A DNA stretch of 42,983 nt from a virus. The notes under the pieces were generated by a model. The model was not told where the DNA came from. It saw nothing but the letters and a program-made list of their open reading frames with translations, and ran no database searches. The first letter of the stretch is position 1; every line of letters starts with the position of its first letter. Positions 1 to 27,855 of this stretch are shown here, in pieces. The translations under genes and the position numbers were made by a program. The DNA is taken from IMG/VR virus record IMGVR_UViG_3300033149_004827, positions 1 to 42,983 of that record, one strand, 5' to 3'.

Positions 1-707
1 CCCACCACGTAATTCAAACGCGCTCGCTCACCCAGGAGCTCACGAGCCTTGCGGTTGTATGCCCTCGCCGCATCCTCAGCACTACGGAAACAACCCAGGA
101 AATACCGCTTGCCCTTCACCATGACCTTGGCCGTCCAAAAACGACCCTGCCGCTGATAATGCACACCACGATAACCAGTGTTGCTCTGAGCAATTACACT
201 CCCTATGTACTGCATGGACGGCAACGGCGACATCCTGCGCGAAGCCTCGAAATTCAAACGAGCATCAGAACCATAAAGAGTCAAGGCCGCTAAATCATAC
301 ATGCGCGCCGCCTCTTCCTCAGTGCCATGCCCCCCTAAATACCACGACCGACCACCCTTGGTGATGGACGCAACCCACTTCCCATCACGCCTGGAATAGG
401 AAACACCACGATAACGCGACCTCGTCCTCTTGTACTTGGCCCGATACTTGCCTAAATCAGCACGCGTGCCCACACGCAGATTGGCCCGCCGATTGTCTAA
501 CCTGTCACCATTCCGATAGAGAACAATCTGCCCCTCCTCAGGCTCCATGATGAACCGCCCAATACGCACAATCTTGCCATCAATCGTCGTCTGCACATAA
601 CGGTCGTAATACCGCCACTTGTGCTGTGCTACCCGCTCATAATCCTCATCGTCCACCACGAACGATCCGTAAATCTCAGACTTGCCGGAAAATCGCACCC
701 TCTTCAC
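1..707 (-). CDS. Tandem AP2-domain DNA-binding protein with degenerate HNH-like N-terminus (3' end outside window)
   Basis: Partial: 235 residues are visible and the frame stays open to the window edge. Residues about 8-80 follow the layout of phage HNH homing endonucleases, with an NGDRLDNRRANLR stretch at 67-79. The usual Asp-His just before it is replaced (LYRNGD), so the metal-binding and catalytic histidine appears lost. Two AP2-type domains follow. The first (98-153) begins RYRGVSY and ends ALTLYGSDARLNF. The second (178-234) begins GYRGVHY and ends RELLGERARLNYV. AP2 domains bind DNA through a three-stranded sheet and are common in phage homing nucleases. The GTG start (707-705) shares four bases with the TGA of the upstream 62-residue gene, so translation is probably coupled. 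It could be a former homing nuclease kept as a sequence-specific DNA binder, or a nuclease using other residues. The AP2 call is firm; loss of activity is inference. Confidence 0.85.
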   Translation of the reverse strand, partial: MKRVRFSGKSEIYGSFVVDDEDYERVAQHKWRYYDRYVQTTIDGKIVRIGRFIMEPEEGQIVLYRNGDRLDNRRANLRVGTRADLGKYRAKYKRTRSRYRGVSYSRRDGKWVASITKGGRSWYLGGHGTEEEAARMYDLAALTLYGSDARLNFEASRRMSPLPSMQYIGSVIAQSNTGYRGVHYQRQGRFWTAKVMVKGKRYFLGCFRSAEDAARAYNRKARELLGERARLNYVV

Positions 708-924: not shown

Positions 925-958
925 AAAAAATTAGGGCCTGATCAATACCAAGCCCTAA
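925..958 (-). terminator. Intrinsic terminator of the stand-alone ncRNA
   Basis: On the minus strand a perfect 7-bp stem (TTAGGGC/GCCCTAA) with a 14-nt loop is followed at once by six T residues. This is a standard rho-independent terminator. It lies between the ncRNA promoter at 1206-1234 and the 62-residue gene, so it defines the 3' end of a short transcript. Confidence 0.85.
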
Positions 959-1004
959 GTCCGTCTCACAGCATCCCGTCCAGGTCGGCACAGAGGAGGG
1001 TTCT

Positions 1005-1079
1005 GTGACTACTCCGCTTCGACTAAGCCAAGCGGCTTCTACGGGTTTGCACCGATGCCATGTAGCCCCATGGCAAATA
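1005..1079 (-). repeat. Copy A of the IS200/IS605 right-end / omega-RNA scaffold motif
   Basis: This 75-bp segment is the diverged partner of 6608-6683. Read on the minus strand it contains a 7-bp hairpin (TGCCATG, loop GGGCTA, CATGGCA) and a terminal hairpin with a perfect 6-bp stem (CCGCTT/AAGCGG). It ends in TCAC, like the tnpB-linked copy. The inner part of the terminal hairpin pairs less well than in the tnpB-linked copy. Confidence 0.75.
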
Positions 1080-1205
1080 ATATCTTTAGTGCGCTCTCAG
1101 GCAAGAGCGGATGCATGGACGGACCTGCCCTGGTCACAGTGGGGCTGACCAAACCCCACTGCGTCCCACCACACAAAAAAGGAGACCACCATGAAAACCA
1201 TCTAC

Positions 1206-1234
1206 ATTATATCACAAGCACATGGACTTGTCAA
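1206..1234 (-). promoter_or_regulatory. Consensus sigma-70 promoter for the stand-alone ncRNA
   Basis: On the minus strand TTGACA (1234-1229) and TATAAT (1211-1206) are separated by exactly 17 bp, so both hexamers match consensus fully. It starts ten bases beyond the stop of the exonuclease gene and points at the ncRNA. It is the strongest-looking promoter in the window. Confidence 0.88.
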
Positions 1235-1242
1235 GACCCAAA

Positions 1243-1842
1243 TCAGGCAATTCTCAGATTCCTTTTGATTTGTCCATGCAACGCTGGCATCCACGTCTCA
1301 ACAGGAATCCACCTAGTCTCACCATGATACCTGTACGGCACACGCCCATGACGCACCCCATACTCATATATCGCCTTGGTTATCTCCACGTCGCCATAAC
1401 AATACTGGATGACCTCATCGATCTTGCCCTGCGCCCATAACTCAGGGGCCTCACCACCATCCCCCGATTTGCTCAAGCCAAGACCCTCGGCAATCTGTTG
1501 CAACTTGACCCGGTGTCCCAGTTGATGGTGAACATGAGATAGTATGTCCACCTGAGAACCTCGCAGAATGCTGTTGGTGGAATTGGGCGATAACCCCAAG
1601 CACCCATCAATCAACAAACTGTCAAACCTGGATGTGTTGAAGCCAACCACCGCGTCGTAACCCATGAAGACCGAAACCAACTTGCCTATTTCCTCGGGGT
1701 TGCCAAAGTAATGCCGCCTCTCTCCCTTATGATCAATAGTGCAAACCACAGAAATCGTGAGCACCCACGGCTTGCCCCAACGCTCGTCGCCACCACCCAG
1801 CCTCTCCGTGATCTCAGCATCCCAGACGATGTACTTTACCAT
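1243..1842 (-). CDS. RNase H-fold 3'-5' exonuclease (DEDDy-like)
   Basis: The 199-residue protein resembles the 3'-5' exonuclease domain of family-B DNA polymerases and DnaQ-like enzymes. Candidate catalytic residues are D8 and E10 (VWDAE), D74 (VVGFNTSRFD) and Y147 with D151 (YCYGD). The Y-x3-D spacing fits the DEDDy subclass. No polymerase domain is attached and none is seen in the window, so it may serve replication proofreading, recombination or host DNA degradation as a free enzyme. The ATG at 1842 lies inside the last codons of recU (7-bp overlap) and is preceded by a G-rich Shine-Dalgarno-like stretch. A TTG six codons upstream is possible but less likely. It is the last protein gene of the early operon before the ncRNA promoter. 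The fold call is solid; substrate is unknown. Confidence 0.8.
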   Translation of the reverse strand: MVKYIVWDAEITERLGGGDERWGKPWVLTISVVCTIDHKGERRHYFGNPEEIGKLVSVFMGYDAVVGFNTSRFDSLLIDGCLGLSPNSTNSILRGSQVDILSHVHHQLGHRVKLQQIAEGLGLSKSGDGGEAPELWAQGKIDEVIQYCYGDVEITKAIYEYGVRHGRVPYRYHGETRWIPVETWMPALHGQIKRNLRIA

Positions 1843-6042: not shown

Positions 6043-6611
6043 AGGACGAAGGACTGATAGCGCTGAACGAGGAATGGGACGCGGTTGCCCGCCTCGATCT
6101 GACCAGTGAGCAATTCGCCGTCATTGGCTATCTCGTCAATGGTATTTCTATATCCAAGATTGCCGACCTGACAGGTATACCACGCAAGACAATCAAACGA
6201 TGGGTCGATAAAGACGCCTTGTTCAATCATGCCCTCGCCATTATCAAAGAGCGACGTGACGCCTTGGTTAGGTCAGAGGCTATTGCGTTACGCCTGAAAT
6301 CGTTTGACGTGCTGGGGTGGTTCCTCCTGGTTGATCCATTCGAGATGGACCGAGACCAGGATGCCCCTAAATACACAAACAGCGAGCGTGTGGCTCTGCT
6401 GAACGCCAAGCTGAAAGTGGCCCAGATGATGGTGGGCGACATGCTGGATCGCACCAAGGTGCAACGGCACGAGGTCACCCATGTGGTGGACAACAACATG
6501 ACTCCAGCCACCGTCCACGTCATTGATGACCGACTCAAGGCGCTGGCTGGCGAGGCCGAGAGGGATGTGCCACATATTTCTGAGGTGGTGGATGCCGAAT
6601 ATGTCGAGTGA
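6027..6611 (+). CDS. terS: Terminase small subunit
   Basis: The 194-residue protein lies just upstream of the large terminase. Residues about 25-60 contain a helix-turn-helix (LVNGISISKIADLTGIPRKTIKRWV) of the kind small terminases use to recognise packaging sites. The middle is helical (DALVRSEAIALRLKSFDVLGW) and would form the oligomer ring. The acidic C-terminus (VVDAEYVE) would contact TerL. The start is GTG at 6027, inside the endolysin gene. The stop at 6609-6611 is formed by the first bases of the transposon right end. Removing the element would give the same final residue and a TAA stop, so the insertion leaves the protein unchanged. The assignment rests on HTH, size and position. Confidence 0.8.
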   Translation: MGPKLKDEGLIALNEEWDAVARLDLTSEQFAVIGYLVNGISISKIADLTGIPRKTIKRWVDKDALFNHALAIIKERRDALVRSEAIALRLKSFDVLGWFLLVDPFEMDRDQDAPKYTNSERVALLNAKLKVAQMMVGDMLDRTKVQRHEVTHVVDNNMTPATVHVIDDRLKALAGEAERDVPHISEVVDAEYVE

Positions 6612-6740
6612 TGACTCCGCACCGACTGAAGTCGGGCGGCTTCTAGGGACTCACACCCATGCCATGTCATCCCAGGGCAAGTGACACTCCACGAGGGCTA
6701 AAGCCCTGTGGCTTCTCGGAATAAACTCCGAGCAACTTGC
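6588..6740 (-). ncRNA. Predicted tnpB-linked omega RNA (3' end and guide)
   Basis: TnpB guide RNAs come from the 3' end of tnpB plus the element right end, with the guide read from flanking DNA. Here the scaffold would run through the tnpB stop region (GGGCTTTAGCCC hairpin at 6706-6695), the 76-bp conserved end (6683-6608) and TCAC. The guide would be about 6607-6588, inside the 3' end of terS. The 5' boundary is uncertain and processing is not visible from sequence. Confidence 0.6.
6608..6683 (-). repeat. Copy B of the right-end / omega-RNA scaffold motif
   Basis: Right end of the tnpB element, aligned to 1005-1079 with about 56 of 75 identities by hand. The terminal imperfect palindrome reads CCGC, CCGAC, loop TTCA, GTCGG, bulged T, GCGG. 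A single bulged T on the 3' side is typical of IS200/IS605 subterminal hairpins. The end is TCAC. Confidence 0.8.
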
Positions 6741-7897
6741 GCTGTGTCCGAGCGAACTACCTGGCTTTTGCCAGGATACTTAGAAGGGTGAACTGCATGA
6801 ATCGTGTTTGGTACACGACAACCAGGAACCAAAGTGCCGTGCTGCCCGATGCAGAGGATGTTGGCACTGCCCACCACATCACGCGGGGCAACATATCCAC
6901 ACTTTCTGCATTTGTACACGCGCCGACACTTGTTCCGTTCTCCGCATACGGGGCACGTCTGCGAAGAATAAGCCTCGTCCTGCTCTATCGCGCCGCAAGT
7001 CTTGTAGTCCAGTTGTTCGATAATCTTGCGGTTGCAGGCAGAACTTACCTGCTGAGCCTGCTTGCGTCTCATCTTCTGGGCCGCGTCATTGAACGGTTTA
7101 CCTACATGACAGGTCGCATTAGGGAAGGCATCGGCTACTTTGCGCGTCGCCTTGTGAGTGATGTCGCGGATACGCCGCTTGGCCTTCGTCAGCATCTTGG
7201 CTTTGCGCCGCTGCAACCGCTTCCAGCGTTTAGAGCCTTTCATCTTACGGCTTTGCAATTGCGAGATTTCAGCAAGTTGCTTGTTACGCCATTGCACCGT
7301 TGCCTTTGCTTCCCGTCCGCTGACCAGTACCGCTTGAACTCCATCAGTAGCGGCAATGAGTGTATTGACACCCAGGTCAACACCGATGACAGTCTGCTGC
7401 GGGCTGGCTTTATCTGGAACTTCGCAGACGAGCAAGAGACTGCCCATCGTCAGACGGGCCTCCATCAACCGTCCCGGAAGGGCGAACGGCAAGGGGATGT
7501 GCAAGATACCAGCACCACCATTGGGCAGACGCACTCTTCCATCTCTGACAGTCGCACCCTGGTTGGTATAAATCACATCTCGATACTTGGTTTTGCGCCA
7601 GGGATAACGGGCGTTAGATTGCCCATTGCGTCGCAGTTGGTGCGCGGACTGAACGGCCTCGCAAAACTCTCCAATGATCTGCTGAACACTCTGCGAATGA
7701 AGATTCGGATACCTGCGCTTGCCCCACTTCTCCCAACGCCCCTTGGAAGGCCATTGCCAGTTGAGACGGCGAATACGATGATGACGCTCCACCAAATCAT
7801 TCCACAGGCGCGCCGCTTCCTGACGAGCAGCAGTAAAAGTGTGCCACTCCGTTTTGGATCGGGGAACCCAGACGATTTCTACTGTTCTATATCCCAT
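6698..7897 (-). CDS. tnpB: TnpB RNA-guided nuclease (IS605 OrfB family)
   Basis: The 399-residue protein has the TnpB order: N-terminal wedge/REC-like region, then RuvC. RuvC-I is IGVDLGVNTL (D174). The zinc finger is C315/C318 and C330/C333 (CPVCG, CRKCG). RuvC-III is PRDVVGSANIL (D340). The usual RuvC-II site, normally a V-I-E-D-L-type strand, reads HVGKPFND (264-271) with no glutamate in place. A conserved-looking glutamate stands instead at E305 in AIEQDEAYSSQTCP, just before the zinc finger. This fits my recollection of TnpB lineages with a relocated RuvC-II glutamate, so activity is plausible. TnpB cuts DNA matching its omega RNA next to a short TAM, keeping the element at its site. Expression looks leaderless from the promoter at 7904-7932. 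The stop lies inside a hairpin of the guide RNA region. Confidence 0.93.
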   Translation of the reverse strand: MGYRTVEIVWVPRSKTEWHTFTAARQEAARLWNDLVERHHRIRRLNWQWPSKGRWEKWGKRRYPNLHSQSVQQIIGEFCEAVQSAHQLRRNGQSNARYPWRKTKYRDVIYTNQGATVRDGRVRLPNGGAGILHIPLPFALPGRLMEARLTMGSLLLVCEVPDKASPQQTVIGVDLGVNTLIAATDGVQAVLVSGREAKATVQWRNKQLAEISQLQSRKMKGSKRWKRLQRRKAKMLTKAKRRIRDITHKATRKVADAFPNATCHVGKPFNDAAQKMRRKQAQQVSSACNRKIIEQLDYKTCGAIEQDEAYSSQTCPVCGERNKCRRVYKCRKCGYVAPRDVVGSANILCIGQHGTLVPGCRVPNTIHAVHPSKYPGKSQVVRSDTAQVARSLFREATGL

Positions 7898-7903
7898 ACG
7901 AGT

Positions 7904-7932
7904 ATTCTACCACACGGTAAGGAGATTGTCAA
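7904..7932 (-). promoter_or_regulatory. tnpB promoter, leaderless geometry
   Basis: On the minus strand TTGACA (7932-7927), a 17-bp spacer and TAGAAT (7909-7904) precede the tnpB ATG by six bases, the same distance as at the methyltransferase promoter. Transcription should start at or next to the ATG; no Shine-Dalgarno sequence fits. Confidence 0.75.
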
Positions 7933-7935
7933 GTA

Positions 7936-8002
7936 TGGCTAAAGCCAGGATCGTTTCATCCACTGCCACTAAAGTGGCATGGCTTTCACGGGCTAAAGCC
8001 CG
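7936..8002. repeat. Three tandem TAAA-loop hairpins upstream of tnpB
   Basis: Three short perfect palindromes share a TAAA centre: TGGCTAAAGCCA (7936-7947), TGCCACTAAAGTGGCA (7964-7979) and CGGGCTAAAGCCCG (7989-8002). A fourth of the same design lies at the tnpB stop (6695-6706). They resemble degenerate copies of element-end hairpins. Confidence 0.65.
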
Positions 8003-8024
8003 CTTTTGTAAAGGAGGTTCCCCC

Positions 8025-8168
8025 TTGAGTGCGATTCAGATTTTACGCGACAATCTACTTGCCGCAACCACCTATCTGAAGTTGTTAAAGGGCCGCGTTG
8101 GACAAGTGCTGAGCCTATTCTGCTTCTGTCACTTTACGCCCAACCGTATTAGGGGAATTATGCCATGA
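8025..8168 (+). CDS. Possible small ORF inside the transposon left region (47 aa)
   Basis: A TTG-initiated frame of 47 codons has an unusually good ribosome site: AAGGAGG lies six to seven bases upstream. The product (start MSAIQILRDNLLAATTYLKL) is helical, with a hydrophobic Cys-containing middle (VLSLFCFCHF) and a basic end. I do not recognise it. It lies on the strand opposite to tnpB, between tnpB and the left-end palindrome, so it would be element cargo or debris. Low confidence because it is short and begins with TTG. Confidence 0.3.
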   Translation: MSAIQILRDNLLAATTYLKLLKGRVGQVLSLFCFCHFTPNRIRGIMP

Positions 8169-8200
8169 ATGAACGAGAAAGGCAAGATTGCACCTTATAT

Positions 8201-8223
8201 CCACAGCCGTTGAAACGGCGTGG
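8201..8223 (-). repeat. Left-end imperfect palindrome of the tnpB element
   Basis: On the minus strand an outer CCAC/GTGG stem encloses GCCGTT/AACGGC with a single bulged T on the 3' side, mirroring the right-end palindrome. It lies 16 bases inside the presumed TTAC target (8243-8240). Confidence 0.7.
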
Positions 8224-8244
8224 TTTTACGGAGCGATCTGTAAG

Positions 8245-10029
8245 ATGACGATAGACGTTGGGAATAGCGACATCAATGATAGCCTGGAACGGGATCCTCT
8301 CCTGTGGACCCTGGCTAACGTCTCCCTGCCGCGCGGAGCCAAATGGCAGTTCGATGGAGAGAGAAGGTGGCAGGTCAACCTGTTCACCGATATGTCCAGA
8401 CAGATTGTGGTACGCAAGTCGGCCCAGGTGGGCATGACTACAACTGCCATCTGCCGGGTTTTCCACTATCTCTATTACTATCCACTTTATTGCATGTATA
8501 CCCTGCCACGTCGCGACGATGTGACTGACTTTGTGGATGTGTATGTCGATCCGCTCCTGTCCAATTCACCTGCCATGCAAGCCCGCCTGCGGTTTCCTGA
8601 TTCCAAGAGGGTGGATAGCAGACGCATCAAGAGGTTTGTGGCTGGCGCTAACCCGTCTGGATCACTGGAGTCCTCTTTCCTCATCTTCATGGAGGCGTCT
8701 GTTGAGCCTCGCATGATCCCCGTTGACGTAATGATCAATGACGAGATTGACCGCTCAGACCCAGATAACATCGAGATATTCGCGGCCAGACAAGAGAACT
8801 CAGCCTGGAAGATCAATTACAAGTTCAGTACCCCATCCATCGAGGGATATGGCATCAGCCCCTATTTCCTCAATTCCACCCAGAACTACTGGCATGTACG
8901 ATGCAGGCATTGCAATCACTGGAACCGCCTTTCCTGGCACAGCAACTTCCGGGAGCCATCCCTGTCTATGGGGCCACACTTGGCCTGCGAGCGCTGTGAT
9001 AGCGTGCTTCGCCCTGAAGATATCATTGATGGCCAATGGATATCGGTAGGCAAACGTGGCCCTGAAGTACCCACTGGCTACCAGGTCTCCAACTTACTCC
9101 TGCCCTACTCCAGGCCAATTGAACGCCTCTACGAGCAATATCTGGAGGCAAAGCGCCTCAAGAACTTCTTCAACCTCACCCTGGGCGAAGAGTATACAGC
9201 GCCGACTGGCTCCATCACCCGTGATACGATCATGAACCGCTGCTTCCAGGAGCCGTTCCCAATGGAGATGATGCGGGATGGGCAGTCACAGTATTATATC
9301 GGCGTCGATCAGGGAAACGACTTGTATGTCGTGGTCAGCAAAAGGTACGGCAATCAGCTGAGAACCGTGCGAACACGCCGCATCCCCTTCGATAGGGCAG
9401 ACGGCTTTGGCGAAGTGGCCAAAATGATCGATGCCTATGATGCCATCGCCGTCATCGAGGCGGAACCCAACAAGCACTCTGCGCGTCGGGTGCAGAGGAT
9501 GTTCCCACACGGCAGAGTCTGGCTGTCAAAATACAACCGCATCGCGAACGAAGTCGCGATCAACAGGGATACTGGAGGGACAGTAACGATATCCAAGACT
9601 GATGCCTTTGACGATCTGCGTGATAGCATAGCGATGGGGCGACTTCAGCTCTGGCGCGACCGTGGCTATGTCGACCCATCCATATTGACACTGGTAGATC
9701 ATCTGACCAACATCAAGAGGGACGAAGATGAAATAAAGATGCAACACGGGGCCACGACAATTGGGGTATGGAAAAGCGTCGGGCCAGACCATTTGGCCCA
9801 CGCACAACTCTTTGCCTTCGTGGCCTGGAAATTCATCAATGCCGGGCATTTCGAAGTCTCTATGATGGGGGTGTCCCCTGAGAAGATACAGGAATTGGTA
9901 GAGGAGTATAGGGCTAATGTTGCTTCTGAAAGTTTACGGGTGGCTACTCAACCAGATAATGGACCACAGGAAGATGTTGCTGGAGAGATGGGGAGCAGCA
10001 AGCTCGGAAGATTGCTCCGCATTGGCTAA
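8245..10029 (+). CDS. terL: Terminase large subunit (GpA-like ATPase/nuclease)
   Basis: The 594-residue protein packages DNA into the prohead. The Walker A-like loop is KSAQVGMTT (58-66) and Walker B is VMINDEID with D166 and E167, followed by the nuclease half (YIGVDQGNDLYVV with an RNase H-type aspartate). A zinc-finger-like pair of CxxC motifs (CRHC, CERC) between the halves is typical of lambda GpA-type terminases. I chose ATG 8245 because it lies just outside the inferred transposon boundary. The frame is open 19 codons further up, but those codons are element left-end DNA. Without the element, terS would stop one base before this ATG. Function is confident; subfamily fairly so. Confidence 0.93.
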   Translation: MTIDVGNSDINDSLERDPLLWTLANVSLPRGAKWQFDGERRWQVNLFTDMSRQIVVRKSAQVGMTTTAICRVFHYLYYYPLYCMYTLPRRDDVTDFVDVYVDPLLSNSPAMQARLRFPDSKRVDSRRIKRFVAGANPSGSLESSFLIFMEASVEPRMIPVDVMINDEIDRSDPDNIEIFAARQENSAWKINYKFSTPSIEGYGISPYFLNSTQNYWHVRCRHCNHWNRLSWHSNFREPSLSMGPHLACERCDSVLRPEDIIDGQWISVGKRGPEVPTGYQVSNLLLPYSRPIERLYEQYLEAKRLKNFFNLTLGEEYTAPTGSITRDTIMNRCFQEPFPMEMMRDGQSQYYIGVDQGNDLYVVVSKRYGNQLRTVRTRRIPFDRADGFGEVAKMIDAYDAIAVIEAEPNKHSARRVQRMFPHGRVWLSKYNRIANEVAINRDTGGTVTISKTDAFDDLRDSIAMGRLQLWRDRGYVDPSILTLVDHLTNIKRDEDEIKMQHGATTIGVWKSVGPDHLAHAQLFAFVAWKFINAGHFEVSMMGVSPEKIQELVEEYRANVASESLRVATQPDNGPQEDVAGEMGSSKLGRLLRIG

Positions 10030-16937: not shown

Positions 16938-18487
16938 TGGGGATCACGTATCCTAACACGTGGCAGGACTTGTCCTACATCTACACAGACGACGGTGGGG
17001 CGTTCTCGGCAAACAATGCGGGGAACACAGCGTTTGATTATTTCCCTGATGATGCCGCAGTAGATGATGCTTTGTATTTCGGGAAGTACGAACGGTGGGA
17101 CGACCTACAGATTTATGTCGGTACGGCGTTTACCGCTACTTCGGTGACGTTCGTGTGGGAGTATTATTCGATTGATGCAAGTGGGTGGGCAACATTGACC
17201 GTTACCGATAATACAAGTGGGTTCACGGTGTTGGGGCAAAATGCAATTGAGTTTGTCCCACCAGTAGACTGGGTACGGACTGGAATCAATGGCAAGTACG
17301 GAATGTGGGTACGGTGTCGCATATCCGCTATATCTGGCGTGACGGAGGGAGGAGCAAACTCCACCGGCAAGTGTCAATGTGGGAATAATCGTATACTGAT
17401 CACTGGTTATTCTGAGGGGACGCCAGCCACACCAAAGGACATATACGATGCCGATCAAGCCGCAGGTTGGGGCCTGGTCTCATTCACGAGAGGACGCGAG
17501 ACATATCATGGTGGCTACCAGTTTCTTGCCTCTGTACAGGTCGGTGATCCCAGTAACGCTGGTTACTTCAAGAATATGTACAGTTTCCTAGACTTCAGCG
17601 TCTTGGGACTGCGCTTCTACCTGCAGAATGCTGGCACGATAGTGCAGTTTGGAGAAAAGGTCGCAGCAAATGGCAACTTTGAATTTGGCCGAGGCGGCGG
17701 CGCGGTATATTTCGCAGGTTATTCTGTTGATGGGTTCCAGTCCGTAGATTCGAGTGGGCCAACGCTGAGGCTCTTCGGCGCATCTGTGTATACGGATGGA
17801 TCGCAGTATACCTTGTATAACGCTAAACTCCATTTAGAGTCTTTGGACTCTATCCTGATGAGGGGGACTACGGAACCAACGCTCGCGGTAGACATAGAAC
17901 ACTCCAACATCACCGCGCTCATTCTTAGCGAGAGCCCAACGACACTCTCGAACACAAGGATAACAGACCAACTCAAGTTGAGACAGAGTGGCACATTTGT
18001 GGGCCTCACTGTCTATGAGGTCGTATTCTGGCAGAATTACCCCAACACATCAACCTGCTATATGCGCAACTGCACTTTCACCGTGAAGACGTATGATATT
18101 ACGGGGGCGGATAGAGGCGTAACGGTCTATTATCAGTTTTCGTTTGACCTGAAGGTGATTGATGAGAATTTCAGTCCGATGGCTGATGCCACGGTGGTGA
18201 TGAAGGATCAGTATGGCACGCAGGTATTCTCAGTCACAACGGACGCGAGTGGGGACATCACGTCTCAGTGGGTGACGTACGAGAAGCGGGTGAAGATCAT
18301 TAATCCGCCAGAAGACACCGATACGTTCTATACTCCCCACACCGTCACCATCACATCTGCCGATGGGTCTCTGACCCGCACGATCCAGTACACGATGGAC
18401 AGAAAGCGGGAAGAGGTTGAGATGCTGAGCGCCAGTGGTGGCGGGCTGCTTACACACCCAGGCATGGCAGGAGGCATGAGGGCATGA
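16937..18487 (+). CDS. Fibre or spike-like beta-rich protein
   Basis: The 516-residue protein is beta-rich with few charged helices. Residues about 30-140 form a sandwich-like module (ALYFGKYERWDDLQIYVG ... GMWVRCRISAISG) that recurs in the distal tail protein at 38848-40959. The middle (about 190-400) has strand repeats reminiscent of a beta-helix (NAKLHLESLDSILMRG, SNITALILSESPTTLSNTRI). Residues about 410-495 resemble a carboxypeptidase-regulatory-like or Ig domain (DENFSPMADATVVMKDQYG). Overlaps on both sides (TGATG upstream, ATGA downstream) show coupled translation. It is probably a surface fibre or head decoration that contacts glycans. I cannot tell whether it is on head or tail. Confidence 0.65.
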   Translation: MGITYPNTWQDLSYIYTDDGGAFSANNAGNTAFDYFPDDAAVDDALYFGKYERWDDLQIYVGTAFTATSVTFVWEYYSIDASGWATLTVTDNTSGFTVLGQNAIEFVPPVDWVRTGINGKYGMWVRCRISAISGVTEGGANSTGKCQCGNNRILITGYSEGTPATPKDIYDADQAAGWGLVSFTRGRETYHGGYQFLASVQVGDPSNAGYFKNMYSFLDFSVLGLRFYLQNAGTIVQFGEKVAANGNFEFGRGGGAVYFAGYSVDGFQSVDSSGPTLRLFGASVYTDGSQYTLYNAKLHLESLDSILMRGTTEPTLAVDIEHSNITALILSESPTTLSNTRITDQLKLRQSGTFVGLTVYEVVFWQNYPNTSTCYMRNCTFTVKTYDITGADRGVTVYYQFSFDLKVIDENFSPMADATVVMKDQYGTQVFSVTTDASGDITSQWVTYEKRVKIINPPEDTDTFYTPHTVTITSADGSLTRTIQYTMDRKREEVEMLSASGGGLLTHPGMAGGMRA

Positions 18488-19967: not shown

Positions 19968-21113
19968 GTGCGCATAGTGGTGATGATCCCCTTGTTGAAG
20001 GGGCGAGTCTACGATCACAGGTTGAGGTTGCCATTAGAGCAACTGGAAAGGAACGGCAAGGCCGACATCATCTGGGCTGATAGCATTTCCGCAGTCCTGC
20101 ACGGCATCAAAGGCGCTGATATCTTCCTGTCCACGAGGCCAGCAGAGGCTGAGATGCTGTCTATCCTGGCCAAGTGCAAGCAATATGGCGTCAAGGTGGT
20201 TGTGGATATGGATGATGCCCTGCATGTCATCCCACACCGCAATCCATTCTACGTGGTTTGGGGAACTCAGATAGATATCATTGAGAAGTGGCAAGACATC
20301 TTGGCCAGCGAGGGAGTTGACATTCCTGCCATCGCCTGGGCCACACAATTTGATGCCCACATGGTAGCGCGCATGGCCAAGGGACGACTATATGTCCTAG
20401 AGCAGTGCCTGAAACAAGCCGATCTGGTGACTGTCACCTGTAGTTTCTTGGCCAACTTCTATAAGAAGCTGTTGCATCTCCACAATGTCAAAATCATCCC
20501 CAATTGCGTGTCTGAGGAAGAATTCCGCGGCATAGAAAGACGGGTAGCAGATGGCGGACGGGTACGCATCCGCTGGGGCGGTTCTCCTACCCACTATGAC
20601 GACCTGGCTATCATCCACGATCCTATGGCGCAGGCCATGAAGGCGTGTCCACATATAGACTTCGATACAGTAGGCCTATCACAGGCTGGCTATCATTTCA
20701 TGAACCAGTTGCCTCGCGATAGATTCACATGCCTGGACGCTAAACCACATCACGAATATATGCAGTGGTTGGCTGACGCAGACATCATCATCGCCCCCTC
20801 AGACAAAAGCAAGTTCTCTATGTCCAAGTCGGACCTGAGGGTGCTAGAGGCTGGCTATCTAGGTGTTCCAGTGGTCGCCAGTGCCGTAACCTATGGCGCA
20901 ACGGTGTCGAAATACAAAATGGGCATCGTGGTACGCAACCCGCGAGACTGGACCAAAGGCATTGTGTCGTTGGCAAGAAATCCTGCTATGCGAGATCGCT
21001 ATGGCAGGAATGGTCGTCATTACGTCAGGACTCATCGGACCTACGAGAGGCAATGGAGTTGGTGGTACAATGCTTATCAATCCCTCTGTGCTAGTGGTGA
21101 TACCGAGCATTAG
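19968..21113 (+). CDS. GT4-like glycosyltransferase (GT-B fold)
   Basis: The 381-residue enzyme opens the carbohydrate cassette. The C-terminal half carries the GT-B nucleotide-sugar signature: WADADIIIAPSDKSKFSMSKSDLRVLEAGYLGVPVVAS, with the glutamate of the E-x7-E-like pattern in the VLEAGYLGVP helix. The middle has a typical acceptor/donor hinge (VKIIPNCVSEEEF). The N-terminus is Rossmann-like with VVVDMDDALH. It would transfer a sugar from a nucleotide donor; which one cannot be read. GTG 19968 has AGGGG six bases upstream. The gene overlaps the GT75 gene by 44 bp. No membrane anchor or signal is visible, so it acts in the cytoplasm. Confidence 0.85.
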   Translation: MRIVVMIPLLKGRVYDHRLRLPLEQLERNGKADIIWADSISAVLHGIKGADIFLSTRPAEAEMLSILAKCKQYGVKVVVDMDDALHVIPHRNPFYVVWGTQIDIIEKWQDILASEGVDIPAIAWATQFDAHMVARMAKGRLYVLEQCLKQADLVTVTCSFLANFYKKLLHLHNVKIIPNCVSEEEFRGIERRVADGGRVRIRWGGSPTHYDDLAIIHDPMAQAMKACPHIDFDTVGLSQAGYHFMNQLPRDRFTCLDAKPHHEYMQWLADADIIIAPSDKSKFSMSKSDLRVLEAGYLGVPVVASAVTYGATVSKYKMGIVVRNPRDWTKGIVSLARNPAMRDRYGRNGRHYVRTHRTYERQWSWWYNAYQSLCASGDTEH

Positions 21114-22137
21114 AAATGTGGATCCATTCATGCTGGACGGCATCCCCAATGATGTCAGGGTTCTAGTTGTCGAAGACCGAGATCATGGAGTGATCAATAT
21201 TGATGATGATCGCTTCACCATCATGGATCACACGGCAGCTAAGCAATACATTGGTGCCAATCGTTACTGGCTGATAGATCAAGGCTCGTCAGCATGTCGT
21301 TCTTTTGGCTACTACTATGCCTACAGAGAAGGCTTCCAGTACGTTATTACCCTGGACGATGATTGTTATACCCGTCCCTCTTTCTGGCCCAGCCTGTGGT
21401 TCAATCGTCAGTCCGAGCCTTGCTGGCCCAAGGCCACTTTGACTGGTGATGCCAGGTGGGTCAACACTATCCCCCTGGGCCCATCGCGCCGCTTTGCCAG
21501 GGGCTACCCACCCGATTACCGCAACGGCTTGACCTTCCTGAGAGAAGGCCGCGGCCATTGCGATGCGATCATGGCACAGATGGGGCTTTGGTCGGGACAT
21601 CTCGACCTGTCAGCCGCTGACAAGCTGACCTGTCAACATGAATGGTCAGACATACACATTGCCGCAGTCACTGATGCAGTTGTGGATAAGGGGAAGTTCT
21701 TCCCCTGGTGTGGCATGAATTACACCTTTGACATACGCTTGGCCCCTGCCCTTATGCATTGGCACAGCAATAAGGACCCTCAATGGGACAGGTACGACGA
21801 TATTTGGGCCGGCTATGTGGCCAAGCATTTGTTGGACAAGAACAATCATGGTGTAATTGTAGGCAATCCTGTTGTCGATCATGCCAAGAGCGGGGACATC
21901 ACTAAGGAATGGGTCAGAGAAAGATACTGCGAATCAATCTCTCACTGGCTCTATCCGTTGATCGACGAGGCTATGACTGGCGTAGGGCCAAGCCCTTCTT
22001 ATGCCCAGCAGGTCTACCAGTTTGCCAATACCTTCAGGCACTTACTGGCAAAGAGCGAGTGTCCACCCATGTGGTCACATTATCTTATGCACATGAGTTG
22101 TGTTCTCAGCGAGTGGGCGGAGTTGTATCATGCATGA
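21070..22137 (+). CDS. Reversibly glycosylated polypeptide / UDP-arabinopyranose mutase-like (GT75)
   Basis: The 355-residue protein matches plant RGP/UAM proteins along most of its length. Visible landmarks: IPSIRN (11-16), the metal-binding DDDC (96-99), ARGYPPDYRNG (143-153, corresponding to the plant RGYPFSLREG site whose arginine is reversibly glycosylated; here R151), MGLWSGHLDL (171-180), FFPWCGMNYTFD (210-221) and RYDDIWAGYVAKHL (241-254). In plants the family interconverts UDP-arabinopyranose and UDP-arabinofuranose. Plant hits would normally dominate, so its presence in a phage is surprising. It probably supplies a furanose donor or acts as a glycosyltransferase. ATG 21070 is preceded by GGAG and lies inside the GT4 gene. 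Family is confident; substrate is inferred. Confidence 0.85.
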   Translation: MLINPSVLVVIPSIRNVDPFMLDGIPNDVRVLVVEDRDHGVINIDDDRFTIMDHTAAKQYIGANRYWLIDQGSSACRSFGYYYAYREGFQYVITLDDDCYTRPSFWPSLWFNRQSEPCWPKATLTGDARWVNTIPLGPSRRFARGYPPDYRNGLTFLREGRGHCDAIMAQMGLWSGHLDLSAADKLTCQHEWSDIHIAAVTDAVVDKGKFFPWCGMNYTFDIRLAPALMHWHSNKDPQWDRYDDIWAGYVAKHLLDKNNHGVIVGNPVVDHAKSGDITKEWVRERYCESISHWLYPLIDEAMTGVGPSPSYAQQVYQFANTFRHLLAKSECPPMWSHYLMHMSCVLSEWAELYHA

Positions 22138-22840
22138 TGAGCGGATCTACCAAGTAGGCGATCCAGTCCCGGACCCTCGTTACACAGTGCTTACCCTGAC
22201 GTATAAACGGCCACGCATGTTGTATGAAGCCCTGCGTTCTCTACAATGTCAGACTGATAGGCGCTGGGAATGCGTCATCTACAACGACGGGGGTGAAAAT
22301 GTATGGCCCATGATCGAGCGGCTTGGCGATCCTAGATTTGTCTATGTGCACTCTCCAGAGAATCACGGGTTCCCTTATGGCTACGAATGGTGCAGGGAGA
22401 ACAGCACCATGATCAGGGGACGGTACGTTGCCTATCTCGACGACGATGACATCTATTATCCCCGTAGCCTGGCAATACGTGGCAGGGTGCTAGACAACAA
22501 CCACTCAATTGGGCTGGTGTATTGCGACGTGGTGCAGATCAGGCATGGCCGCCAAGTGAATTATTGGGGCATCAAGGGGCAACCAGGGAATGGCAGCATG
22601 GACGAGAGATTGTTCCAAGTCGCCAACTGGATTCAACCGCTGAGGGTCATGCATCGCCGTTACGATCACATCAGTTGGGGCAAGACGAAGGCGGCCCATG
22701 CCGACTGGCTGTTCCTCAAGCAATTGATGAAGCATGGGGTAAAGTTCTATTATCATCCAGTGATCATCGCGCAGTACAATTGGCACAATCTGCCCAACGT
22801 GCCATCAAACAACACTGGCATTGACGGGGTGACGCGGTAA
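22130..22840 (+). CDS. Family 2 glycosyltransferase (GT-A fold)
   Basis: The 236-residue enzyme has the GT2 pattern: YTVLTLTYKRPRMLYEALRSLQCQT at the start, ECVIYNDGG, then the DXD-type YLDDDDIYYPRS, and a C-terminal segment with HADWLFLKQL typical of the acceptor side. It would invert configuration while transferring a sugar from a UDP- or GDP-donor. ATG 22130 is preferred over the earlier GTG because CGGAG lies seven bases upstream; it overlaps the GT75 gene by eight bases. The stop shares a base with the next start (TAATG). There are no membrane segments. Confidence 0.87.
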   Translation: MHDERIYQVGDPVPDPRYTVLTLTYKRPRMLYEALRSLQCQTDRRWECVIYNDGGENVWPMIERLGDPRFVYVHSPENHGFPYGYEWCRENSTMIRGRYVAYLDDDDIYYPRSLAIRGRVLDNNHSIGLVYCDVVQIRHGRQVNYWGIKGQPGNGSMDERLFQVANWIQPLRVMHRRYDHISWGKTKAAHADWLFLKQLMKHGVKFYYHPVIIAQYNWHNLPNVPSNNTGIDGVTR

Positions 22841-24108
22841 TGAACACCTATTACATCATACTGGCCGCTGGCAGTGGGACAAGGGTTGGTACGATAGTGC
22901 CCAAGCCATTCATGCCGCTGGGTACCAGGTCGATTCTTGATGTGACTTTGGATGCTTTCGACAAGCAACGCACTGTCGTGGCCGTCCCTGTTGGCCATTA
23001 CGCCCTCGGAGTCACCAATGTGCTGGGTGGCAAAACGCGGGTGGAATCGCTACGGCGAGCCTTTGCTCGTATCCCAGAGTGCGATGTGGTAGTCATCCAT
23101 GATGGCGCGCGACCCTTTGTAAGAGCAACGCAGGTTGATGCAATCGCAGAGGCTGCATGGCGTTATGGAGCGGCTGGTTATGGCCTGCCACTGGTTGATA
23201 CTCCTATTGAGATTGACAGTGAGGGCTTCATGGTAAGCCGTCTAAGACGCAACAGGTGGCACAGTTCCCTCACACCACAAGCCTTTCGCTATCAAGTCCT
23301 CGCTGATGCGCTGGAAACCATAGATGACAATGAGACGGAAATACTAGCTGGTTGCAAGCAAGTCAAGATACTAAGTGGTGGCAACAACCTGGTCAAGATC
23401 ACTTATAGGCCAGATATTGAGATTGCAAAACTATACGACCGACAGCAGAAGGTAGCGTTAGTTACGGGCAGTAGCAGGGGCATAGGCTATCATACTGCTA
23501 TTGCCCTACACGATGCGGGCTATCAGGTCGTTATCAACAGTCGAAACGAACGCTCTCTCCGCAACTTGGCAAGTAACCTGGGCGTCGATCATTGCGTGGC
23601 AGACGTATCGGAGGAAGATGATGTGCAACGAATGATGTCAAAGATCCACGAGAAGTACGGCGGGCTTGACGTGCTCATCAACAATGCTGGGATAGGCTAT
23701 CGTGGTGAGATTGCTGGCATGGATGTTACAGAATGGGAGAGGGTAATGTCCGCCAATCTCACTGGTGCATTCCTGTGCATCAAGCACGCCGTGCCGATCC
23801 TGCACGAGAATGGCATCATTGTCAACGTTGTGTCGTCCAGTGTCAAGGGTGGGCGTGCTGGACTGGCGGCATACGGAGCATCAAAGGCGGGCCTGGCCAA
23901 CCTGACTGGCGTTGCTGCTCAGGAACTAGCTCCCATGAACGTGTCAGTGTTCGCCGTAGCACCGCGTCGGACAGACACGCAGTTGAGGTATGATATGTTT
24001 GGCAGGGAAGATGGATTGGACAAGCCCGAACGTGTGGCGAGGGTTATACGCACCATTTGCTGTGGCGATATGAGTGCTCTCAGTGGACAGGTGTTGTGGA
24101 TACACTAA
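22840..24108 (+). CDS. Fused cytidylyltransferase and short-chain dehydrogenase (CDP-ribitol synthase type)
   Basis: The 422-residue protein joins two enzymes. Residues 1-200 are an IspD/TarI-type cytidylyltransferase: LAAGSGTRVG (8-17), PKPFMPLG, VVVIHDGARPFV (83-94), TPQAFRY (145-151) and NLVKITYRPDIEIA. Residues 204-422 are an SDR: TGSSRGIG (209-216), NNAG (281-284), a Ser cluster at 332-334 and YGASK (345-349), so catalytic residues are intact. The same fusion order occurs in Bcs1/Acs1 of Haemophilus, which reduces ribulose 5-phosphate and activates ribitol 5-phosphate to CDP-ribitol. The TagF/TarL-like transferase three genes later would use such a CDP-polyol. It overlaps the upstream gene by one base and the sulfotransferase gene by 13. 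CDP-ribitol is the likely product, but another polyol is possible. Confidence 0.85.
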   Translation: MNTYYIILAAGSGTRVGTIVPKPFMPLGTRSILDVTLDAFDKQRTVVAVPVGHYALGVTNVLGGKTRVESLRRAFARIPECDVVVIHDGARPFVRATQVDAIAEAAWRYGAAGYGLPLVDTPIEIDSEGFMVSRLRRNRWHSSLTPQAFRYQVLADALETIDDNETEILAGCKQVKILSGGNNLVKITYRPDIEIAKLYDRQQKVALVTGSSRGIGYHTAIALHDAGYQVVINSRNERSLRNLASNLGVDHCVADVSEEDDVQRMMSKIHEKYGGLDVLINNAGIGYRGEIAGMDVTEWERVMSANLTGAFLCIKHAVPILHENGIIVNVVSSSVKGGRAGLAAYGASKAGLANLTGVAAQELAPMNVSVFAVAPRRTDTQLRYDMFGREDGLDKPERVARVIRTICCGDMSALSGQVLWIH

Positions 24109-24758
24109 TCAATCGATGTATATTTGTTATTGGCACGGGCAGATCAGGGACCAGTGCTGTTGCCAACGTCCTGCATCATCTTGGTGTATTCATGGGAGCC
24201 AAACTTAGTGCTCCTGGTCCAACAAATCGCTGGGGAAATTACGAAGACAGAGAGTTCTACGAATTCAATCGGGCAATGGCTCATGGTGGCACTCTAGAAA
24301 AGGGACAGCCCCTAAAGGTTGGAACATGGGAAGGTAGGGCTATAACCATCCCTGAAGGCATAGAGAGATTCAAGTCCTTTCAGGCTGCTAGGAGTAGTTA
24401 CCCGATCTGGGGAGTCAAGGATCCAGGCCTTTGTTACACGTTACCCGTCCTAGCCCCATTGATTGAAGATCTGAGAGTAATAGTTGCCAGGAGACCAGCA
24501 GAAGAGAGCATCGCATCGTATAGACGGGCGTATGGTGCAAGTGCACGTGAAGCCAGCGAATGGTATTATGATGTCAGGAAGGCATTGGACGCTAATCTTC
24601 TCCAGTTCAGGGGGCCACTCATGGAGGTGCAGTTCCGTGACCTCCTCACTGATACGAAAGTCGTGGTGAACAGTATCGTGGAATTCGTATTCGATGGTAT
24701 GGACAAACCCGGTGATGATGTTATTGAAGCTGCATGTGGAGTCGTGGTGAATTCATGA
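24096..24758 (+). CDS. Sulfotransferase-family protein
   Basis: The 220-residue protein has the P-loop-like PAPS-binding start of sulfotransferases: FVIGTGRSGTSAVANVLHHLGVFMG (about 10-34). It then has VIVARRPAEESIASYRR, which fits the 3'-phosphate-binding motif (R...S) of the family. It would transfer sulfate from PAPS to a hydroxyl, most likely on the glycan made here. No PAPS synthesis genes are nearby, so the host must provide the donor. I chose GTG 24096, which overlaps the previous stop by 13 bp; a TTG at 24057 would add 13 residues. The stop overlaps the methyltransferase start (ATGA). The family call is good; kinase-like alternatives are less likely. Confidence 0.75.
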   Translation: MDTLINRCIFVIGTGRSGTSAVANVLHHLGVFMGAKLSAPGPTNRWGNYEDREFYEFNRAMAHGGTLEKGQPLKVGTWEGRAITIPEGIERFKSFQAARSSYPIWGVKDPGLCYTLPVLAPLIEDLRVIVARRPAEESIASYRRAYGASAREASEWYYDVRKALDANLLQFRGPLMEVQFRDLLTDTKVVVNSIVEFVFDGMDKPGDDVIEAACGVVVNS

Positions 24759-25492
24759 AATGCAAGATATGTGGTAGCCAAGCCAAGTATGCTTACTCGA
24801 TACCAACAACCCGCAAGGAGTTCGCCGACCAATATGATTTTTACGTTTGCCCCTTCTGTCGTTTTGCCTTCACGACAGCCCTGGACCATGTGGACATGGC
24901 TAAGTTCTACGGCGATGGCTACGAGCAATATGATATCGCGTCGGGGCGGCGGGGCCCGAGGGAAGTCGGAGTGGCAAAGAGAGCACTTGAAATGTATCGC
25001 AGCGGCGGAGTAAGGACTTTATCTCTTGGGGATAGAACCCTGACCGGGCAGGAATATCTGAGTCGGGCTGGATTCGATGTTCTTAGTGCCGACCTCGGGT
25101 TGAGAGGGGCTGGACATTGGGATCTAAGCAATGGGCTACCCCGCGAGACGTTTGATATCATCACCCTGATCGAGGTTGCCGAGCACTTTGTGCAGCCCCT
25201 TGCCGAGTTTACCAACATAAGTGCACTCTTGAATCCTGGCGGTGTACTCTGTGGAACAACCGGGTGTCGAGATTTTGCTGAGATCTGCCGCGACTCAAAG
25301 CCAGACGCCGAGTGGTGGTATTGCAATACTGCCAATTGCGACAATGGGCATATCTCGTTGTATTCCCTCAGCTCATTGCTATATCTAGCACGGCAGTGCA
25401 ATCTGGAGTTATTCCTAGAACCACGAGATCCGGCCGTCACCGATTACATGGGGCAAAGTCAGGTCGTATTCTATTTCAGGAGACCTGCATGA
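24755..25492 (+). CDS. Zinc-finger SAM-dependent methyltransferase
   Basis: The 245-residue protein starts with a zinc-binding knuckle (CKIC and CPFC, 19 residues between the pairs). It continues with a class I methyltransferase core: LSLGDRTLTGQEYLSRAGFDVLSADLG as motif I to II and FDIITLIEVAEHF as motif IV to V, then LNPGGVLCGTT. N-terminal zinc-ribbon methyltransferases of this type modify sugar nucleotides (C- or O-methylation). Motif I is degenerate (LGDRTLTG rather than G-x-G-x-G), so SAM binding may be altered. The gene overlaps both neighbours by four bases. A sugar methyltransferase is the likely role, given the context. Confidence 0.78.
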   Translation: MKCKICGSQAKYAYSIPTTRKEFADQYDFYVCPFCRFAFTTALDHVDMAKFYGDGYEQYDIASGRRGPREVGVAKRALEMYRSGGVRTLSLGDRTLTGQEYLSRAGFDVLSADLGLRGAGHWDLSNGLPRETFDIITLIEVAEHFVQPLAEFTNISALLNPGGVLCGTTGCRDFAEICRDSKPDAEWWYCNTANCDNGHISLYSLSSLLYLARQCNLELFLEPRDPAVTDYMGQSQVVFYFRRPA

Positions 25493-26415
25493 GATTTCTA
25501 GCACTAAGCACTGATACCAAGCACACGGCAGCCATGGCCAGGCTGGTTGCTGGACTTCGCGCGGCAGGTCATGAGGCAGTTGCCAAAGGCGCTGACAAAG
25601 ATTTCATCCTGGTGGACAATGCCGGCTCCATACGTAGTGCATCTGTGCCTATTATTTGGTTGCCACATGGCCTGAGTCCATCCAAGTGGGCTTTTTGCAA
25701 TCAGCGCTTCGATTGGCACCTGAATCAGAACAAGGCGGATAACTTGGCCGACCTGATGTTGTTGCCAGGCCCCTGGTGGCTCACGTTCATGCGCCAGTAC
25801 TTCCCTACTTCCAGGCAGGCTTTCGTAACTGGTTGGCCCAAGGCTGACGCACTCGTTGACGCCAATGTGCCACCAGCGAAGGCCGGTGCGAAACCCGTGA
25901 TTCTATTCGCCCCGTCGTGGAATCGTGCGGACCTGTCCACTGTTGGCACGTTCCACCTTGTGGATGATGTGCAGAAAATAGCATCGCAACATGGCACATT
26001 TGTGGTTGTGCCGCACCACCCCGATTTCCACAAACGTGATGGCGCCGTGGAGGTTGGCGACATCACCCCCTGGCTGAAGGCAGCAGATGTGTTGATCACG
26101 GATCAGTCTAGCACGGCCATCGAGTTCGCAGTGCTGGATAAGCCAGTGCTACACCTGACCGATGTTATCAAGGCCAGGCAATGGTCTGGCGGCGACGGCC
26201 AGCAATTCGCGGTTGGAGCGTTAGTGACGCTAGACGATCTTGGCCAGGCCATCACGGAGGCCTTGGCGGCCCCCAACAAGTACAAACACTTGAGGGATTA
26301 CTGGGTTGCGGCCATGCTTTACGACGTGGGACACGCCACTCAGAGATGTATACGTGTCATAGAAGCATTCATGGGGATTTGGAAGGACACCAATGTACAT
26401 TGCCATGGTAAGTGA
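25489..26415 (+). CDS. TagF/TarL-like polyol-phosphate transferase
   Basis: The 308-residue protein has the C-terminal catalytic region of CDP-glycerol/CDP-ribitol polyol-phosphate transferases: WLPHG (58-62), LFAPSWN (139-145), the VPHHP motif (175-179) and DITPWLKAADVLITDQSS then EFAVLDKPVL (191-221). In teichoic acid synthesis these enzymes move glycerol- or ribitol-phosphate from CDP-polyol onto a carrier or growing chain. The CDP-polyol would come from the fused synthase two genes upstream. It lacks the amphipathic N-terminal extension of full-length TagF. AGGAG lies six bases before ATG 25489, which overlaps the previous stop (ATGA). The family is clear; the acceptor is unknown. Confidence 0.82.
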   Translation: MRFLALSTDTKHTAAMARLVAGLRAAGHEAVAKGADKDFILVDNAGSIRSASVPIIWLPHGLSPSKWAFCNQRFDWHLNQNKADNLADLMLLPGPWWLTFMRQYFPTSRQAFVTGWPKADALVDANVPPAKAGAKPVILFAPSWNRADLSTVGTFHLVDDVQKIASQHGTFVVVPHHPDFHKRDGAVEVGDITPWLKAADVLITDQSSTAIEFAVLDKPVLHLTDVIKARQWSGGDGQQFAVGALVTLDDLGQAITEALAAPNKYKHLRDYWVAAMLYDVGHATQRCIRVIEAFMGIWKDTNVHCHGK

Positions 26416-27853
26416 CAACGTATTACCTACCCCCGTTGATGGGTGGGGCGGATTGCAACGAGTAGTCTACGATATGGCGATGGAGTTGCAGTCGCGAGAC
26501 CATCGCGTTGACCTCTTTGCCACTACTGGCTCAAAGTTCTCTGGCACCCTCTATACCCTAGGTGAACCACAGCACAGCTGGCAACATGAAGGACAGTATG
26601 TGGATGCCGTAGAAAAAATCATAGGAAAGAGGGTCAAGTATCATGTGATTCATGATCATACTCATCGCCATCTCTTGCAGGACAGGCATCCTGAGTGGCC
26701 CATCATCAACCATGTGCACGACGAGCTACCGCAATCTGACCATAACTTACTTCTACCCAGCTATGCCCTGAAGCACCGCTTAGGATTGCGGCGTGCCCGT
26801 GTGCTCTACAACGGGGTTGTCACCAGTGACTTCCGTCCTTACTTCAAAGAGGCCCCTAGCAACTACCTGCTGTATATGAGCGTCATTTCGGAGCGAAAGG
26901 GTGCCGACATCGCCGTGAAAGCGGCTATAGCCACTGGCACAGAATTGCTCATTGCTGGCAAGACGGATTGGGACAGGGCCTACTTTGACAATCGCCTACT
27001 GCCACTCATCGAAAGCAGTCACGGCCTTGTGTCATTTATCGGCCCCCTGACTGGCCCAGAGAAGATGCATCACTTATCTAACGCTAAGGCCCTGATATTG
27101 CCCAGCCGATACTGTGAGCCCGGCTCGATTGTTGTACTTGAGGCACAGGCTTGCGGCGTGCCAGTCATCACTTCACGTGATGGTTGCCTGCCTGAATACG
27201 TTGAGCACGGCGTCTCTGGTTTCAACTGTGGCAATCTTCAGGAATATATGGATGCCATCAACAACGTGGGCGACCTCAATCGCAAAGACATTATGGAGAT
27301 TGCAGCCCATGAGTGGGATATCACGCGTGTGGTGAATAATCTAGAGATCTGTTACACTATGATGGCGCGGGGAGAGACATGGATCTCGGAAAAAGAGATG
27401 CACTCACCCTCACCACGTGATGGGGTGCGTGATATCTGCGTCATTATCGAATATGGGAGTGGCAAGAAGAATCTATTGCAGAGAAAGCAACTGCTACGAA
27501 CATTGCAGTCAGTTGTTGACAATACCTATCTCGGGTGGTATGCTATTGTAGTAGGCGGGAGTGCGTCGGCGCTGGTCAGGCAACAGGGCTGGGGGAAAGA
27601 TCCCCGAATCATCTTCGTGGATGATATGGAAGCAGCCGAGGAGTTGGCCACCAGCGGGAGATTTATCATGAGCATCCGCCCAGGGACGGAATTGAGGAGC
27701 AGGCATTTCAAATGGATGGTCAGGTTCTTGGGGTCCTCCAGCACATCAGCGGATGCGGCAGCCTACACCGATATGCCAGACGCGATCATGTGGAAGATGC
27801 CTGGGCAGAGGGATAATGCCGAGATAGCACTGATAGAATATTGTGAGGACTGA
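26393..27853 (+). CDS. GT4 glycosyltransferase with extra C-terminal domain
   Basis: The 486-residue protein has a full GT4 fold in residues 1-345: VDGWGGLQRVVYDMAMEL near the start, then YNGVVTSDF, YLLYMSVISERKGADIAVKAA, and the donor-binding PSRYCEPGSIVVLEAQACGVPVITS, where E-x7-E is replaced by EPGSIVVLE. Residues about 345-486 are an appended domain (RDICVIIEYGSGKKNLLQRKQLLRTLQSVVD ... GRFIMSIRPGTELRS) that resembles a decayed GT2/GT-A fold without a clear DXD. It may be a non-catalytic sugar- or partner-binding module. The gene overlaps its neighbour by 23 bp and closes the first sugar block. GT4 is firm; the second domain is a guess. Confidence 0.82.
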   Translation: MYIAMVSDNVLPTPVDGWGGLQRVVYDMAMELQSRDHRVDLFATTGSKFSGTLYTLGEPQHSWQHEGQYVDAVEKIIGKRVKYHVIHDHTHRHLLQDRHPEWPIINHVHDELPQSDHNLLLPSYALKHRLGLRRARVLYNGVVTSDFRPYFKEAPSNYLLYMSVISERKGADIAVKAAIATGTELLIAGKTDWDRAYFDNRLLPLIESSHGLVSFIGPLTGPEKMHHLSNAKALILPSRYCEPGSIVVLEAQACGVPVITSRDGCLPEYVEHGVSGFNCGNLQEYMDAINNVGDLNRKDIMEIAAHEWDITRVVNNLEICYTMMARGETWISEKEMHSPSPRDGVRDICVIIEYGSGKKNLLQRKQLLRTLQSVVDNTYLGWYAIVVGGSASALVRQQGWGKDPRIIFVDDMEAAEELATSGRFIMSIRPGTELRSRHFKWMVRFLGSSSTSADAAAYTDMPDAIMWKMPGQRDNAEIALIEYCED

Positions 27854-27855
27854 AG

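Follow-up and report, generated by a model that had tools for sequence, protein, structure and literature searches.

TnpB nucleases are the ancestors of CRISPR-Cas12, and the tnpB gene is regarded as yielding their RNAs as by-products. What is a segment that resembles such an RNA doing among phage genes, with no tnpB beside it? The segment lies on the minus strand of the viral record IMGVR_UViG_3300033149_004827, of which a stretch of 42,983 nt, hereafter the window, was analyzed. On the ORF map of the window, the minus-strand early gene set has no gaps except an ORF-free one of 350 nt, which holds the unit. Upstream, this gap follows the 1243-1860 ORF; downstream, it extends to the ATG at 892 of a 62-aa ORF (892-704). 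The closest tnpB, at a distance of 5.4 kb, belongs to another family, as judged from the ORF map, Pfam domains and the covariance model described below. This gene, at 6698-7897 on the minus strand, is the sole TnpB-like gene of the 43-kb window; the preliminary description was thus right that no tnpB lies beside the unit. No close relatives of the phage were found in IMG/VR using the 1243-1860 protein, tnpB and terL as queries, and blastn against GenBank phages gave chance-level matches only.

A covariance model (R1) was derived from 33 tnpB-linked scaffolds, with the sequences of the window excluded. Its top match in the window was 1086-1005 on the minus strand, a core ending in GGAGTAGTCAC, which aligned over the full length of the model (1-81) with 67.9 bits and an E value of 1.1e-15. 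Because a model free of window sequences ranks this segment first, we conclude from the sequence that it is a genuine scaffold of an omega-RNA (TnpB guide RNA), here of TnpB family B, and that chance likeness is ruled out. Stem 1, at 1056-1075, consists of TGCCATG/CATGGCA with the loop GGGCTA, both in the structure alignment and in the covariance model. The loop sequence GGCTAC pairs with the 3′ GTAGTC to form a pseudoknot, in the same register as in the ISDra2 TnpB structure, where positions -6 to -2 pair upstream (PMC10097598). The right end of the core carries the cleavage motif TCAC at 1005, as found at the right ends of non-autonomous IS605 elements and as the preliminary description had it. 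In the omega-RNA or reRNA of IS200/IS605 TnpB of the ISDra2 type, the scaffold likewise ends in TCAC, the guide follows directly and the 3′ end forms a pseudoknot with an upstream loop (PMC8612924, PMC10097598). The phage unit agrees with this class in scaffold sequence and structure, in the pseudoknot and in the placement of the guide. It differs in not being attached to a tnpB 3′ end, in having its own promoter and terminator and in the absence of a cognate tnpB from the window. The stretch 1039-1098 on the minus strand retains a C-terminal remnant of the tnpB reading frame (ESALKILFAMGLHGIGANP followed by a stop, compared with NAALNILALGLQSLG... and a stop in tnpB-linked members), in which the TAG of TAGAAGCC serves as stop codon.

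The pattern TAGAAGCC-N14..24-GGAGTNNTCAC matched 89 viral stretches. About half of the matches lie where a tnpB ORF ends at its 3′ side, the TAG of TAGAAGCC often being the tnpB stop codon. Judged by this placement, the pattern is the right end of a TnpB family other than the phage's own. Among the 33 tnpB-linked scaffolds the three stems and the pseudoknot were paired in 97.7% of cells, compared with 76% for shuffles and at most 48% for slid controls; doubly changed cells numbered 114 versus 31, and 12 of the 17 pairs were doubly changed. The pseudoknot, in which a loop GRnnAC joins a 3′ GTNNTC, covaries across the family, loop and partner being Watson-Crick paired in 24 of 32 cases (shuffle mean 9.5, maximum 15). 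The aligned family-B TnpBs retain D-E-D, the canonical RuvC residues. Family B occurs in viruses and in Chloroflexota, where its RNAs were found in 21 of 400 genomes and were mostly tnpB-linked.

In the preliminary description the core had been matched by hand, at about 56 of 75 positions, to the tnpB element's right end. The likeness stood, with 54 of 73 aligned positions identical between the core and 6680-6608 (minus strand), an E value of 1.6e-9 within the window and an alignment score of 35 against a maximum of 12 among 1000 dinucleotide shuffles, but the identification of the matching sequence did not. The tnpB element ends at 6681 and the matching sequence starts at 6680, so the comparison had been made with a second family-B core, unit 2 (6608-6680, minus strand, ending in GGAGTCATCAC), which scored 49.5 bits and E 8.8e-11 with the R1 model. 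The pseudoknot of unit 2, GATGAC/GTCATC, is compensated relative to that of the stand-alone unit: CTA in the loop has become TGA, a stop codon in the remnant frame, while the 3′ partner TAG has become TCA, so that pairing is restored. Such a compensated change, including an in-frame stop, points to constraint on the RNA and not on the protein. The left part of the family-B element lies at 8008-8239 (minus strand), with a left-end hairpin CTCCGTAAAACC..GGATATAAGG after CTTAC, and the element ends at 6608. The hairpin, at 8233-8194, has the CTCCGTAAA..GGATATAAGG frame of family-B left ends such as those of the elements in genome G001. When the inserted tnpB element (8007-6681) is subtracted, 305 nt without a tnpB remain. 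By these ends and this content, unit 2 is a non-autonomous IS605-type element split by the tnpB element. The nested insertion as a whole (8239-6608, minus strand) lies between terS and terL, with the end of the core abutting the terS stop codon, and the break that the inserted element made in the 305-nt element coincides exactly with the 5′ edge of that core.

The phage tnpB itself belongs to family A (PF01385, 6e-14; PF07282, 8e-14). The RuvC D residues of its product are present, and the canonical RuvC-II E is replaced by K. Its element, delimited by right and left ends at 6681-8007 on the minus strand, was inserted after TTTAC. The right end GGAGTGTCAC, with 6681 as its last position, is common to loci L002-L008, and the left end is 81% identical to that of L006 over 69 nt. 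The right ends of seven relatives, which share 58-68% identity with the phage TnpB and come from MAGs labelled Anaerolineae, Ardenticatenales and 'Proteobacteria', all terminate in a GTGTCAC motif. The guide predicted for the TnpB of the phage itself, TTGCCCTGGGATGACATGGC (6680-6661), is the start of the unit 2 core; it also matches the stand-alone core at 1076-1057 (minus strand) in 16 of 20 positions, without a preceding TTTAC. The RNA of the phage tnpB reached only 28.2 bits (E 3.9e-5) with the R1 model, compared with 67.9 for the stand-alone unit. We therefore rejected the phage TnpB as partner, its own scaffold being of another family, and the earlier proposal of a guide RNA for the phage TnpB was not supported. 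No family-B tnpB was found in the window, which means that any partner would need an outside source. Given the different family of the phage TnpB RNA, a family-B TnpB of the host or of a co-resident element is the likelier partner, as far as scaffold families tell.

The promoter and the terminator that had been noted before both held up. The promoter, at 1234-1206 on the minus strand, is of the sigma-70 type (TTGACA-17-TATAAT, with TG before the -10 hexamer) and matches the consensus at 12 of 12 positions. It is the only such match in the 43-kb window, and none of 150 random 220-nt segments from the same strand of the same contig attained this score. The intrinsic terminator, at 958-925, has a 12-pair stem, a loop of 4 and a T6 tail. 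The span between them would give a transcript of ~275 nt (1199-925, minus strand). In folding predictions this RNA outperformed all of 200 shuffles (z -3.4), with the opposite strand close behind (z -3.1). Homology, covarying structure, pseudoknot, perfect promoter and terminator together give good support to the earlier reading of the locus as a stand-alone omega-RNA gene.

Since the terminator lies ~40 nt ahead of the next start codon, and alternative hairpins are present around the guide, the RNA might be a leader or attenuator that controls the 892-704 ORF and a downstream AP2-HNH endonuclease gene through the terminator. We consider this very improbable: the TnpB scaffold is the only conserved part, a closing stem formed by the 5′ and 3′ flanks was no better than in shuffles (762 of 1000 were as good) and Rfam returned no match, neither at the gathering threshold nor at E<1.

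The explanation we prefer, to which we give about an even chance of being correct, is that of an immobilised stand-alone gene whose omega-RNA acts in trans on a family-B TnpB of foreign origin. The unit would derive from a tnpB element of the family-B IS605 type, of which the 3′ end remains and the tnpB and the left end have gone, and would have gained a promoter and a terminator of its own. Its transcript would fold into the TnpB guide-RNA scaffold with the pseudoknot intact, and a family-B TnpB of the host or of a co-resident element could then load it in trans. The loaded enzyme may recognise a site bearing the guide sequence, classically one that lacks the unit, such as a rival phage might offer. 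It is the specialised layout of the locus that leads us to prefer a working trans-acting RNA to the leader described above and to the two readings that follow.

The first of these is that the unit is a transcribed remnant, a non-autonomous IS605-type element that decayed between two genes and is now functionless. Such elements are common (unit 2, L101/L065, L121/L126 and the G007 and G001 sets are examples), one of the same make-up, a PATE-like element, has been published (PMC7290912) and a piece of the tnpB reading frame survives here. We nevertheless rate this reading as rather unlikely, because scaffold and pseudoknot are intact although the left end is lost, a perfect promoter and a terminator are present, and ~350 useless nt would tend to vanish from a compact phage operon. 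Upstream of the stand-alone unit there is no recognisable family-B left-end hairpin with TAM, although a diverged one may exist; in the window the CTCCGTAAA..GGATATAAGG frame occurs only at 8233-8194, in unit 2. Without a left end the stand-alone unit is not a plain mobile element. The preliminary description had also considered a tnpB right end that lost its gene recently. The surviving C-terminal frame makes this case partly true, but with the left end gone the loss of the gene need not be recent.

The predicted guide of the stand-alone unit, AGAACCCTCCTCTGTGCCGA (985-1004, minus strand), comprises the 16-20 nt after TCAC according to the omega-RNA right-end rule, and its start at 1004 had been placed correctly. 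A 17-nt guide had no exact match in IMG/VR, and 16 nt with up to 3 mismatches had no second site in the window. In 400 Chloroflexota genomes there was one 16-nt match, about chance level and without a TAM, since it sits behind ATCGTG and not behind TTTAT- or TTAC-like bases. The proposal that the phage aims TnpB at a chosen site therefore gained no guide target beyond chance in IMG/VR, the window or these genomes. The guide can pair with the last CAC of the scaffold in a 6-bp hairpin, CACAGA/TCTGTG. Occlusion of the guide by this hairpin was rejected, as the predicted pairing of the first 12 nt is unremarkable and 75% of units are at least as paired.

With no target found, the RNA could also be a decoy that ties up a TnpB of the host without directing it to a useful target and so shields the phage or its elements, in the manner of RNA anti-CRISPRs (Racrs) acting on Cas proteins. 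A solitary, promoter-driven mimic without a protein is the layout of the viral Racrs, solitary repeat units in which even a non-targeting crRNA inhibits (PMC10651486), and the promoter of the unit is the strongest in the window. The phage unit resembles a TnpB guide scaffold and not a CRISPR repeat, and any inhibition is putative. Against a decoy stand the complete scaffold and the guide directly after it, and we regard this possibility as unlikely.

Related stand-alone units in other phages, which the preliminary description had envisaged, were sought with the covariance model, and 21 viral units without tnpB in reach aligned to it at E<1e-5. Adding one bacterial unit and both units of the window gives a set of 24 distinct rows, in which 96.3% of pair cells are paired, as are 96.7% of those of the pseudoknot, which is absent from the model. 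A promoter matching at least 10 of 12 positions within 220 nt upstream was found for 5 of the 24, compared with 1.0 expected. Among the 24 tested, only the phage unit at 1234-925 had promoter and terminator together; the terminator being confined to that unit, we rejected this layout as general to stand-alone units. Ten of 45 viral records had no TnpB domain at all, though most are fragments. It is conceivable, though in our view doubtful, that TnpB guide RNAs with promoters but no nuclease are dispersed among phages, which use them to borrow, reprogram or block the TnpB of hosts and rival elements, with the stand-alone unit as a fully domesticated member derived from a transposon right end.

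Several of the other units have features of their own. L101 (two copies) and L065 share the left boundary TTTAT and the TCAC end within different flanks and are clearly mobile; the same applies to L121 and L126. A virus record of 68.6 kb (G007; L128-L131) has six family-B omega-RNAs versus two TnpB genes, and three of these RNAs are ~120-nt mini-elements consisting of the left-end hairpin plus scaffold. Another (G008; L132), a contig without a TnpB domain, has two stand-alone copies (9509-9584 and 17965-18034) with a common left-end hairpin, both with a promoter-like TTGACA..TAGTGT just upstream of the core. In genome G001 a stand-alone omega-RNA-like repeat of ~250 bp is dispersed (L028, L029, L031, L033, L034 and L038), with overlapping copies at L014, L016, L017, L019 and L020; L022 also has it. 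In six aligned copies its left boundary (CCAT|AGAAAATCCTC) directly precedes the start codon of a gene, to which the element thereby contributes a Shine-Dalgarno-like GAGG from the opposite strand.

Stand-alone IscB omega-RNAs occur in Ktedonobacter. Of 16,029 RAGATH-18 RNAs, 36% are not beside an IS607 TnpB (PMC11061315). Unlike the phage unit, these scaffolds serve other protein families and are not phage genes with promoter and terminator. A non-autonomous IS605 element that keeps the tnpB 3′ end has been described in Halanaerobium (PMC7290912). Such PATE/MITE elements, of which unit 2 is one, share with the phage unit a tnpB 3′ end and a right end without the gene; the phage unit differs in having no recognisable left end and in its strong promoter and terminator. 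TldR-guide RNA cassettes in prophages place phage-borne TnpB-type guide RNAs beside a dead TnpB (PMC13418256), whereas no nuclease-dead tldR adjoins the phage unit and no regulatory target was found. Non-autonomous IS605 elements, CRISPR RNA mimics in phages and phage guide RNAs with dead TnpB are thus already known. In the open papers searched, a set without subscription papers and most preprints, no account was found of a phage stand-alone TnpB guide RNA gene with promoter and terminator. If the preferred explanation is true, guide RNAs would be a component inherited on its own, much as crRNAs came to be for Cas12, and phages would gain a nuclease-free means to steer or jam an enzyme widespread in bacteria. 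This significance derives from an intact scaffold for a TnpB that the phage does not encode and from the ~21 stand-alone viral relatives.

The AP2-HNH endonuclease gene at 1-707 (minus strand; PF00847, 3.9e-15; PF13392, 1.8e-6) is homing-endonuclease-like, is the second gene after the omega-RNA gene in the downstream direction and is truncated by the contig end. Judged from translations, glycosyltransferase-like, nucleotidyltransferase/reductase-fusion-like and methyltransferase-like genes lie amid phage structural genes at 19968-31672 (plus strand). Antisense to the omega-RNA promoter there is a 25-codon ORF (1191-1268, plus strand) with a strong Shine-Dalgarno sequence, AAAAAAGGAGACCACCATG, and unit 2 has a comparable short ORF opposite its 5′ part.
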